The notes beneath the pieces are model-generated. The model saw only the letters and a program-made list of their open reading frames with translations. It did no database searches and had not been told where the DNA came from. From NCBI GenBank assembly GCA_019637915.1, contig JAHBUV010000001.1, positions 248,001-312,000 on the forward strand: a DNA stretch of 64,000 bases, written 5' to 3'. The DNA is from Pseudobdellovibrionaceae bacterium. Lineage in GTDB: Bacteria; Bdellovibrionota; Bdellovibrionia; Bdellovibrionales; Bdellovibrionaceae. Positions 11,271 to 15,275 of this stretch are shown here, piece by piece (position 1 is the first letter of the stretch; every line of letters starts with the position of its first letter). A program made the position numbers and the translations under genes.

Positions 11271-12935
11271 TCAGGGATAAATCATCGAATCGATGAGGTC
11301 CGTCAGCTCTTTCAATTTATACGGCTTTGGAAGGAACCGGCCTAGACCTTTCTGCACGGCAATATGATTTTGAATCTGCGTGCGGTGCTCGGTGAAAGCC
11401 GTTGCGAACAAAACGGGCAAATCAGGTTTGATTTCATGGATTTTCCGCAGCAGCTCGAAGCCGTCCATCGGGGCCATGTTGATGTCCGTCACCAACAGGC
11501 GGTAAAAATCGGGACGCCGGCGGAACTCCTCCAGGGCGCCCAGGGGATCCGAGGTGCAGAAACACGTCAGGCCCTGCGCCTGCAGGGCCTCCCGCACCAG
11601 TTCCACGACGGTCTCCTCGTCGTCGACGAAAAGAATCCCGTGGTTCGCCGAGAACGTCATCGGCAAAGGCGCGGCCTCCGCCGGGCGTTTTTCCCCGCCG
11701 GGCGACGTTTCGTTTTGCCCCAGACTTTGCTCGCGATCCTTGCGGCTCAAGGCCAAAATTTGCCGGACGAGATCACGGGCCCGCAACGTTCCCTGGAATA
11801 ATTTTTCACGCACGGGCGTGATCTCGTGGTCCGCCGGCAGAGTGTGTTCCAGGCGGTCAATGTGTCCGAACAGGATCGTCAGGATGTTGTTGAAGTCATG
11901 GGCGATACCGCCGGCGAAGCGTCCGATCGATTCCATTTTTTGGATCTGCCGCACTTGTTTTTCGTAAGCGCGGCGGTGGCGTTGATCGGCCTCCAGCCGC
12001 GCCACCTGCCTGAGCAGCAAATGCGACAGGAACAAAATGGAACCCACCCCCACCAGCATGAAGATCACGTGGATGAAACTCGACACCCGCCACGTGGCGT
12101 AGACGCTCGGTTGCGAGCGGCCCGCCACGGCGATGATCGGCGCCCCGGGCACCTGCCGGAAATAGGAGAGCTTCAGCAGGCCGTCGACCGGCGAAACACC
12201 GTAGAACCATCCCGATTCCCTCTTGCGCAGCTCCTGGAAAACCAACGACAAGTCCCTGAAGTTTTGTCCCAGCGCCTGCCGCACCTCGGGGTAACGCAAC
12301 AGCAGGGTGCCGTCGCGGGACAACACGAAAATCGCGTCGTGGCCCCAGATGCGCAGGTCAGAAAAAAAATGGTCGTAGAAACGCGTGTCGAGTGCTCCCC
12401 CCAGCAGGCCGATGTTTTTCCCCTGCGCGTCCGCGATGATGCGCACGAAGGGGACGAAGGCGCGGTCCTCGCCCAGGGAGCGGTCGATGTTCCCGATCCA
12501 CATGCCCTGATGCTCCAAACTCTTCATGCGCTCCAGGTCCGGGAGGTTGAATTTCGCGCCGACCGGCAGGAGGGGCTCGGTGGAGGCGATCAGGCGCGCC
12601 TGCGGATCCAGGACAAAAACAAAACCCAGTCCGCTGATGGGAACCATGTTGTCGTTCAGAAAAGCGCGCAAACGCGGCAGGGATCTCAACAAGCCCCGCA
12701 CGTCGCGCTCGGCGGACAGGCGCTCGTCGAGCTGGTGCACCGCCTGGAAAACGTTGGAAAGGTGCTCCGCGACCACCATGGTGACGTTGGCGGAGTTGCG
12801 GATGACCGGCCCTTTCGCCAGGCGGAAATCCCTCCAGACCGACAGCAGGGCCAACAGCGTGATCAAAGCGCAGGCGAGCAAGGTGGCGAACTTAACCTGG
12901 CGGCGGAAACTCTGCAGGGGGGCGAGTTTTCTCAT
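11271..12935 (-). CDS. Hybrid sensor protein lacking the kinase ATP-binding domain: dCache-like sensor, HisKA, receiver
   Basis: A 554-residue inner-membrane protein. TM1 is at about 17-35, then a periplasmic Cache-type sensor (about 40-280; ISGLGFVFVLDPQARLIAS, FVLSRDGTLLLRYP), TM2 at about 285-308 and a coiled coil. The dimerisation/phospho-acceptor domain IGRFAGGIAHDFNN has an intact His346. After LVRQILALSRKD (about 400) there is only a 30-residue linker before an intact receiver domain with FVDDEE, Asp484 in LLVTDINMAP and Lys537 in FLPKPYK. No N, G1, F or G2 box is present, so the protein cannot bind ATP as a normal histidine kinase. The start overlaps the stop of the larger kinase by 4 bp (ATGA). 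It is best read as the substrate half of a two-protein kinase. Confidence 0.88.
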   Translation of the reverse strand: MRKLAPLQSFRRQVKFATLLACALITLLALLSVWRDFRLAKGPVIRNSANVTMVVAEHLSNVFQAVHQLDERLSAERDVRGLLRSLPRLRAFLNDNMVPISGLGFVFVLDPQARLIASTEPLLPVGAKFNLPDLERMKSLEHQGMWIGNIDRSLGEDRAFVPFVRIIADAQGKNIGLLGGALDTRFYDHFFSDLRIWGHDAIFVLSRDGTLLLRYPEVRQALGQNFRDLSLVFQELRKRESGWFYGVSPVDGLLKLSYFRQVPGAPIIAVAGRSQPSVYATWRVSSFIHVIFMLVGVGSILFLSHLLLRQVARLEADQRHRRAYEKQVRQIQKMESIGRFAGGIAHDFNNILTILFGHIDRLEHTLPADHEITPVREKLFQGTLRARDLVRQILALSRKDREQSLGQNETSPGGEKRPAEAAPLPMTFSANHGILFVDDEETVVELVREALQAQGLTCFCTSDPLGALEEFRRRPDFYRLLVTDINMAPMDGFELLRKIHEIKPDLPVLFATAFTEHRTQIQNHIAVQKGLGRFLPKPYKLKELTDLIDSMIYP

Positions 12936-15031
12936 GGCGACACCACGCTGTCGTTGCCGTCGTTTTTATCCGTGAAAAACCCCATCTGCTGCAGACTGAA
13001 GAGAAGGTCGTTGAAGCCATAGGGTTTGCGCAGGATCACCGTGTTGGGCGGCAGCTCCACCGGTCCGACGGAATCGCTCTTCACGGTCAACAGTCCCACC
13101 AGCTGCGGATTGTAGCGCCGGGCTTCGCGGAGCAGGGCCACGCCGCTCGTCGGCGGCAGATCCTCCTCGACCACGAGCAAGCGGTACGACTTCGGATGCC
13201 GGCGCAGCTCCTCCAGGGCCTTCGCCCCGTCCGTCAGGCACAGGGCCTGAATGCCCGAGCTTTCGAAGAAATCGCGCACCAGGATCATCACCGCCGTCTC
13301 GCCGTCGACGAAGAGGATGCCGGGGCTGCGGTGGTTCTCCCCTTCCGCGGAACGGCTCACGGAGCGCGCCGGCCAGCGGATGCGGGCGTTGGTGCCCCGT
13401 CCGGGCTCGCTTTCCAGGTGCAGATGCCCGCGCTGCAGGTTGACGATCTCGCGCACGATGGGAAGCCCCATGCCGAGCCCCTGACCATGGCCCTTCGTGG
13501 TGAAGTACGGATCGAAAACGCGGTCCTTGTTCTGCCTCTCGATGCCGACGCCGGTGTCGGAAATTTCCAGCTCCACGTCGTGACCCTGGCGCCGCACGAA
13601 CAGACCCAGGACGCCGCCGTGGTCCTTCATGGCATCGACGGCGTTGGCGCACAGATTGAGGATCACCTGATAGACCTGCGTCGGGTCGGCGTCGATCTGC
13701 ACGTCTTCGGATTCGCGCTGCAAATGAATTTGAATGCTCGGCGGCAAGCCGGCGCGCAGGAACAGCGCGATCTCCTCGCAGAGCTCCCCCACGTGCACGG
13801 CCTGACGGGCCGGGCGGTGAAAACGCGTGAAGGCGAGGATCTGCTGCACCAGATCCCGCGCGCGCCCCAGAGCCGTGCGGATTTTCTTCAGGGAATCGAG
13901 GGCCGTCGGTTGGTCGTTGACCCTTTTTTCAATCCACTCCACCTGGCCCGACATCACGGTGAGGGCGCTGTTGAAATCCCGCGCCACGCCGGAGGCCAGG
14001 CGCCCGATGGCCTCGAGATTCGAAGTCGCCCGCGTGCGCTGCTCGAGCTGCTCGATGTCCTTTTCCTCTTGCTCGATCTTGTTGAGGTGCGCGAAGAGGT
14101 AATATCCCAGGAACCCCACGCCCACGATCATGAAAAAGGCCAGGGCCACGCGCTGGTAAAGGGCCACCCACCAGCCGGCGTACATCGCCCCCCGTCCGTA
14201 CACCAGGAGCACGAAATAGGGGTAATGCTCCGAGCGCCGGAAGCTGTAGAAGGAGTCGATGTTCTCGATGGGGGAATAGTCCTCGAGCACGCCGCTGACC
14301 TGCCGGTCCACCATCTCGTAGACCAGCTGCTGGCCGCGCAGGTTGCGGCCGATCAGTTCCTCGCGGACCGGATAGCGCAACAGGATCTGGCCGCTGCGCA
14401 AACGGATGCTGGTGCGCAGATTCTCATCGCCGGCGATCTGTTTGAAGAGACGGTGGTAATAGTCCTGATCCAGGCCGCTGCCCACCACCGCCAGCAACCG
14501 ACCGCGGGCGTCCCGGGCGACGCGACTGAAGGAGATCACCCGGCGCTTGCGCGTTTCCGGGTCCACCAGGGCGTTGAAGATCACCTGCGAGCCGGTGGTG
14601 TCCCGGGAAAGCTCCGTGAGGGTGCGCAAATCCAGGTCATCGGGCCGCACCAGGTCCGGATGGGTGCTCGCCAATAATTTTCCTTGAGAGGACAACAAAC
14701 AGGTGAACGAGGCCCCGCGCGCGCGCGTCTGATGGCGCTTGAGCAAAGCATCCAGGCGCGCCGGATCCCGCAGCAGGCCGGGGTCGGCCTCGATGCTCTT
14801 GACCGTCATCTCCATGGAGTGGTCCAAGGTGGAAACAGCCTGATCCACCTGCTCGATCAACAAGCGGGCGAGGTTTCCGGAGTCGCGCGCGTAAACATTG
14901 TAAACGCCCCGGTACTCGATCCACAAAGACAGGCCCAGGGTCAGGAAAATCAGGAAAATCACGGCCCCCAGATAGACCCGAATCAGGGTCTTCAATCGAT
15001 CCAGGGGTTGGCGCTCTCCTGAGAAAAACAT
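12932..15031 (-). CDS. Hybrid sensor kinase with intact ATP-binding domain but no phospho-acceptor His or receiver Asp
   Basis: A 699-residue protein. TM1 is at about 18-38, then a Cache-type periplasmic sensor (about 40-285), TM2 at about 293-315 and a coiled coil. In the HisKA motif IGRLASGVARDFNS the phospho-acceptor position is Arg351 (codon CGG), not His. The ATPase domain is complete: N box NLCANAVDAM (Asn459/Asn463), G1 SDTGVGI, F box FDPYFTTK and G2 GQGLGMGL. The C-terminal receiver is degenerate: FVDGE instead of DDE, and Glu622 (VVEEDLPP) where the neighbour has Asp484, though Lys669 (LRKPYG) remains. So the enzyme can bind ATP but has no acceptor of its own. No Shine-Dalgarno is visible before ATG 15031 (CTCCCCCC). 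It is translationally coupled to the downstream partner. Confidence 0.9.
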   Translation of the reverse strand: MFFSGERQPLDRLKTLIRVYLGAVIFLIFLTLGLSLWIEYRGVYNVYARDSGNLARLLIEQVDQAVSTLDHSMEMTVKSIEADPGLLRDPARLDALLKRHQTRARGASFTCLLSSQGKLLASTHPDLVRPDDLDLRTLTELSRDTTGSQVIFNALVDPETRKRRVISFSRVARDARGRLLAVVGSGLDQDYYHRLFKQIAGDENLRTSIRLRSGQILLRYPVREELIGRNLRGQQLVYEMVDRQVSGVLEDYSPIENIDSFYSFRRSEHYPYFVLLVYGRGAMYAGWWVALYQRVALAFFMIVGVGFLGYYLFAHLNKIEQEEKDIEQLEQRTRATSNLEAIGRLASGVARDFNSALTVMSGQVEWIEKRVNDQPTALDSLKKIRTALGRARDLVQQILAFTRFHRPARQAVHVGELCEEIALFLRAGLPPSIQIHLQRESEDVQIDADPTQVYQVILNLCANAVDAMKDHGGVLGLFVRRQGHDVELEISDTGVGIERQNKDRVFDPYFTTKGHGQGLGMGLPIVREIVNLQRGHLHLESEPGRGTNARIRWPARSVSRSAEGENHRSPGILFVDGETAVMILVRDFFESSGIQALCLTDGAKALEELRRHPKSYRLLVVEEDLPPTSGVALLREARRYNPQLVGLLTVKSDSVGPVELPPNTVILRKPYGFNDLLFSLQQMGFFTDKNDGNDSVVSP

Positions 15032-15199: not shown

Positions 15200-15275
15200 T
15201 GGTGGTCACTGCAGGACTCGAACCTGCGACCCCCTCCATGTCAAGGAGATGCGCTACCAACTGCGCCAAGTGACC
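15200..15275 (-). tRNA. tRNA-Val (anticodon GAC), CCA encoded
   Basis: On the minus strand the acceptor arm GGTCACT pairs with AGTGACC, followed by discriminator A and an encoded CCA (15200-15202). The D arm is GCGC-AGTTGGTA-GCGC, the anticodon stem TCTCC/GGAGG encloses the loop TTGACAT with anticodon GAC, and the T arm is GCAGG-TTCGAGT-CCTGC. The anticodon GAC reads GUC (Val). It lies 66 bp beyond the end of the glycosyltransferase gene's upstream neighbour region and 168 bp upstream-side of the sensor kinase start, all on the same strand. Confidence 0.95.

Follow-up and report, generated by a model that had tools for sequence, protein, structure and literature searches.

A candidate split histidine kinase encoded by overlapping tandem paralogues with complementary losses in a Pseudobdellovibrionaceae bacterium

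Two overlapping sensor genes with reciprocal defects

Two adjacent sensor genes in a Pseudobdellovibrionaceae bacterium encode proteins that each lack what the other keeps of a hybrid histidine kinase. They lie in a 64,000-nucleotide stretch of its genome (assembly GCA_019637915.1, contig JAHBUV010000001.1, positions 248,001 to 312,000; hereafter the window), where the gene for P2 overlaps that for P1, a response regulator gene (P3) follows, and a tRNA gene precedes (Table 1). The ATGA shared by P2 and P1 likely couples their translation.

P1 retains the phospho-acceptors and lacks the ATPase. Its Pfam content is dCache_1_like, HisKA and Response_reg. The codon CAT (11898-11900, minus strand) specifies His346 in the motif HDFNN, the only phospho-acceptor His in the dimerization and histidine-phosphotransfer (DHp) domain of either protein, and Asp484 is present at the receiver position. 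No HATPase was found in P1 by Pfam search at E<=1, and its predicted model contains no ATPase fold; the DHp is instead joined to the receiver by a linker of ~30 residues (about 400-430), modeled at low confidence and without secondary structure. P1 is thus not a canonical hybrid kinase, in which His, HATPase and receiver Asp share one chain, as the HATPase is absent. It has the composition of one partner of a split kinase (acceptor His, no ATPase domain), and it also carries the HE/DxxN/T phosphatase motif, as His346-Asp-Phe-Asn-Asn.

P2 shows the reverse pattern. Pfam recognizes its dCache sensor and a HATPase_c domain (82.7 bits, cut-off 26.4) with intact N, G1, F and G2 boxes, and the predicted structure supports an ATPase fold. 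At the phospho-acceptor position, the codon CGG (13979-13981, minus strand) specifies Arg351; the Asn at H+4 is also gone while the Asp at H+1 is kept (HDFNN to RDFNS). Both HisKA (26.4 bits) and Response_reg (24.1) fall below their curated cut-offs of 26.9 and 30.2, respectively. The receiver has lost one residue of its acidic pocket pair (DD to DG) and is predicted to lack the alpha4 helix. In the monomer models of P1 and P2 the sensors are unreliable (mean predicted local distance difference test scores of 54 and 58). Without His and receiver Asp, P2 is not a canonical hybrid kinase either; it fits the other partner of a split kinase (ATPase intact, no acceptor) and equally the definition of a DivL-like pseudo-histidine kinase (HisKA-HATPase without acceptor His). 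Catalysis by P2 is at least conceivable, its ATPase boxes being intact. The HPt-type acceptor domain and the CheW-like P5 domain that mark CheA-type kinases were found in neither protein by Pfam. A first-pass annotation of this DNA had assigned these four diagnostic residues (Arg351 and Glu622 in P2, His346 and Asp484 in P1), an intact ATP-binding domain to P2, none to P1, and a 4-bp overlap, all of which we confirmed, the residues in the DNA itself.

Table 1. Features of the locus (positions in the window unless given as residues)
Feature	Position	Strand	Description
P3	10435..11214	(-)	OmpR/PhoB-type response regulator; receiver 97.4 bits, Trans_reg_C 60.8 bits
P1, 554 aa	11271..12935	(-)	Membrane anchor and dCache-type sensor, DHp, linker, receiver
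ATGA overlap	12932..12935	(-)	P2 stop/P1 start, 4 bp, read in the sequence
P2, 699 aa	12932..15031	(-)	N-terminal membrane anchor and dCache-type sensor, DHp, HATPase_c, pseudo-receiver
P2 HATPase_c	residues 449-556		Intact
P2 pseudo-receiver	residues 572-676		Degenerate; Glu622 at the Asp position
tRNA-Val (gac)	15200..15275	(-)	Just upstream of P2

Both kinds of protein are rare. Using local profiles seeded on the HisKA proteins of the host genome, we found among its 46 HisKA matches a single full-length one that lacks the His, namely P2, and a single one with no recognizable HATPase, namely P1. Another host kinase (L158 758-2641; G000:C1, about 1451257-1453140) has an intact HisKA His and a HATPase so degenerate that the local profile does not recognize it. 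In published surveys, His is missing from 0.9% of HisKA domains and Asp from 2.0% of receivers (PMC12632262), and 3.66% of HisKA proteins (1,556/42,417) lack HATPase, 711 of these 1,556 carrying HE/DxxN/T (PMC3591291). From published base rates, uncorrected for the number of windows scanned, the chance of both defects is ~7e-4 per adjacent kinase pair if they are independent. Since both types are rare, and their defects are reciprocal and fall in one overlapping pair, an unrelated origin of the two defects is improbable.

Shared ancestry and mirrored conservation

P1 and P2 are paralogous over the length that they share. Their sensors share 28% identity (102 bits; the next sensor match scores 52-56 bits), and the P2 receiver likewise matches that of P1 best (44% over 79 residues, 66 bits; next 46 bits). 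In IQ-TREE phylogenies with 13 relatives, the two are sisters whether sensor and DHp are used (Shimodaira-Hasegawa-like approximate likelihood ratio test/ultrafast bootstrap 97.3/98) or the sensor only (97.3/94). Their branches are long, that of P2 the longer, and some long-branch attraction is possible.

The relatives point to an intact ancestor. Among the nine nearest from outside the phylum (four proteins from the phylum of genome G372 and five from Alphaproteobacteria), all nine have His and HATPase, and seven carry a receiver in the same protein, namely all four of the G372 phylum and those of Methylorubrum, Microvirga lotononidis and Azospirillum. This makes an ordinary dCache-HisKA-HATPase-receiver hybrid kinase the most likely ancestor, its two descendants having degenerated in complementary ways. 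Tandem duplication recurs for this kinase type: in another genome of the host phylum (G149; L112 7404-10371), two related dCache kinases lie in tandem and overlap, with His in both, the second ending at the contig end.

Conservation across the domains of P1 and P2 mirrors the split. By score against profiles trained without P1 and P2, the P2 HATPase stands at the 58th percentile of 117 domains and the P1 HisKA at the 40th percentile of 105. Measured as mean identity to a reference set of 46 intact hybrids, the P1 HisKA and receiver stand at the 35th and 20th percentiles and the P2 HATPase and HisKA at the 28th and 22nd, while the P2 receiver is less conserved than 46/46 reference receivers. 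On these percentiles, the parts that each protein retains appear ordinary and those covered by its partner appear lost or relaxed, most clearly the P2 receiver. The P2 DHp is relaxed only slightly, which is what a continued role in dimerization would predict.

Taken together, tandem paralogy, relatives of intact architecture and domain-by-domain conservation that mirrors the split make it well supported that P1 and P2 are complementary halves of one ancestral kinase, as the first-pass annotation had proposed. Its further statement that neither could act alone was too strong: P1 with its HDxxN motif could be a phosphatase or relay protein, and P2 could be a pseudokinase modulator. The heterodimer that it suggested, with phosphorylation of His346 in trans and then of Asp484, is plausible.

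A proposed trans-acting kinase pair and its alternatives

We consider it somewhat probable that the tandem duplicates act together as a split kinase: P2 would transfer a phosphoryl group in trans to His346 of P1, from where it would be relayed to Asp484 and/or P3. P2, whose own DHp cannot be phosphorylated, would donate the ATP-binding catalytic domain, and P1 would donate the acceptor His346 and the receiver Asp484. The two would be held together by their paralogous DHp helices and by their transmembrane and Cache parts, either as a heterodimer or as a dimer of dimers of the kind proposed for RcsC/RcsD. Once on His346, the phosphoryl group would move to Asp484 and/or to the downstream OmpR-type regulator P3; were a four-step relay used, a stand-alone HPt protein would be available (123-aa frame at G000:C1:2504180). 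Free P1, having kept HDxxN, would act as a phosphatase, and output would therefore depend on both sensors. More tentatively, the pair could be a natural, obligate hetero-oligomeric HisKA kinase that arose by duplication and complementary degeneration, with both diverged Cache sensors required, possibly as a two-input gate; this fuller version is possible, though we would not call it probable.

Several observations weigh against such a split kinase. Action in trans needs a suitable handedness of the DHp-bundle loop (the rule of Ashenberg et al., as cited in PMC5956149), and a P2 of cis-type loop geometry could not reach the His of P1 within a heterodimer. The DHp that P2 keeps is moderately conserved and its pseudo-receiver is folded, features that would fit a modulator equally well. 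No orthologue of either gene was found in 60 close relatives, in 141 genomes of the order or in 369 of the phylum, nor in 395 genomes of G372's phylum, and a pattern-seeded scan across 84,980 species, which divergent relatives can escape, yielded none. Finally, a congeneric genome (G001) retains the regulator without any kinase at the locus. Separately, the five loci examined from a plasmid tblastn search all proved to encode kinases with intact His and HATPase.

The most serious alternative, which we nonetheless regard as rather unlikely, is that P2 serves regulation as a pseudo-histidine kinase, much as DivL, RetS or RcsD do, and is no longer a kinase for P1, with P1 fed by another kinase or serving as a phosphatase or phosphate sink. 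Both the His-less kinase DivL and modulation of one kinase by another (RetS/GacS) have been described (PMC12189002), the 46 HisKA and five HPt matches in the genome include other possible phosphoryl donors for P1, and the congener's regulator exists without the kinase pair. However, a purely allosteric role would require neither the intact nucleotide boxes of P2 nor a HATPase conserved as in ordinary kinases, and gene overlap and paralogy favor P1 as P2's target.

Joint decay, with both genes inactive since duplication, drifting toward pseudogenes and complementary only by accident, would suit a pair that was found in a single species, sits on long branches and includes a badly degraded receiver in P2. 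Yet the reading frames are open across 1,253 codons and their codon usage looks native (GC content at third positions 0.80 for P1 and 0.84 for P2; codon adaptation index 0.58 and 0.66, vs. 0.62-0.77 in neighboring genes). The retained motifs are intact despite only ~28% identity between the proteins, and the ATPase of P1 has been excised cleanly between domains. Intact motifs and native codon usage make decay an improbable explanation. That an assembly or sequencing artifact deleted the P1 HATPase or the P2 His is barely credible: two base changes separate CGG from either His codon, making a single sequencing error unlikely, P2 carries further independent substitutions in the same domains, an in-frame linker stands in place of the P1 ATPase, and the contig spans 3.26 Mb of a genome that is 99.8% complete.

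Known systems and the surroundings of the pair

Split kinases of related design are known. CheA3 and CheA4 of Rhodobacter sphaeroides do not autophosphorylate alone and do so together, one chain having the acceptor His without a catalytic domain and the other the reverse, as in P1 and P2 (PMC3591291). The same paper describes predicted split bifunctional HisKA kinases, defined as HisKA proteins without HATPase and with HE/DxxN/T; P1 matches them, and whereas the passage on them names no partners, P1 has a likely one in its overlapping paralogue with the reciprocal defect. Unlike P1/P2, CheA3/CheA4 belong to the CheA family and a chemotaxis pathway and use a separate P1 acceptor domain, whereas the pair in the window has a HisKA-type DHp and a dCache sensor on both proteins, with receivers attached.

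Complementation between defective chains has laboratory precedents. In the EnvZ dimer, mutant chains without acceptor and mutant chains with defective ATPase complement each other. The same is reported for CheA mutants (reference 18 of PMC5956149), and split EnvZ domains are active, as cited in PMC3591291. These cases were engineered, whereas P1/P2 is a natural candidate. In Mycobacterium tuberculosis, HK1 and HK2 divide the ATPase and His parts among themselves; they represent one kinase cut in two pieces, unlike full-length paralogues with complementary losses. With TcrA they make up a set of three genes, two kinases and one regulator (Rv0600c-Rv0601c-Rv0602c; PMC8965865), as in the window.

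Two further systems resemble the pair in part. P2 is like DivL of Caulobacter in being a HisKA/HATPase protein without His, and the DivL structure 4q20 is among its sequence matches. CckA, the kinase on which DivL acts, is complete. In contrast to the role proposed for P2, DivL is a catalytically inactive modulator of CckA (PMC12189002). RcsC/RcsD are likewise a sensor pair of similar architecture in which one kinase domain is inactive and which serves a single phosphorelay, and a heterotetramer has been proposed (PMC13317618); unlike in P1/P2, RcsC is a complete kinase and RcsD adds a phosphotransfer His.

Because its arrangement is like that of CheA3/CheA4 and its sequences fit the published definition, the pair can be placed, by domain content, in a recognized, uncommon and little-studied class of split kinases. 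It is unusual in that each half is a full-length paralogue with its own sensor and a predicted membrane anchor, the losses being reciprocal and the genes overlapping. We found no description of such a pair in limited searching of the literature, with subscription journals outside its coverage. If the proposed mechanism is right, this would be a clean, genetically simple case of a homodimeric sensor kinase turned obligate hetero-oligomer after duplication, in which two extracytoplasmic sensors feed one phospho-acceptor. It would then parallel in nature the complementation achieved in the laboratory, and would allow a test of the switch-like responses predicted for split bifunctional kinases (PMC3591291).

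P3, on the same strand ~57 bp downstream of the P1 stop and with an intact receiver, is by its proximity the probable output of the pair; the first-pass annotation had overlooked it. In the congener G001, the P3 orthologue (61% identical) has the same TtcA-like and channel-like neighbors, with no decayed kinase remnants next to it; the pair was either gained in the lineage of the window or lost in the congener. In its place upstream of the regulator, G001 has two small tandem paralogous secreted-looking proteins (L108, about 12330-12950) and also a pirin-like gene. Next to the regulator orthologues of other genera and families, no canonical kinase with a P1- or P2-like sensor was found. At five loci from another family of the order (L115, L116, L118, L120 and L123), the P3 orthologue adjoins a membrane protein of 418-466 aa whose C-terminal part gives a weak HATPase-like match and in which no HisKA or His is recognizable, possibly another His-less kinase-like partner of this regulator lineage.

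The base composition of the stretch matches its neighborhood, and no sigma-70-like promoter was scored within it. Upstream of the tRNA lies a glycosyltransferase-like gene that G001 lacks as well. The stretch from P3 to this gene is unshared with the congener at the corresponding place, and tRNA-Val may therefore mark an integration or variable site.

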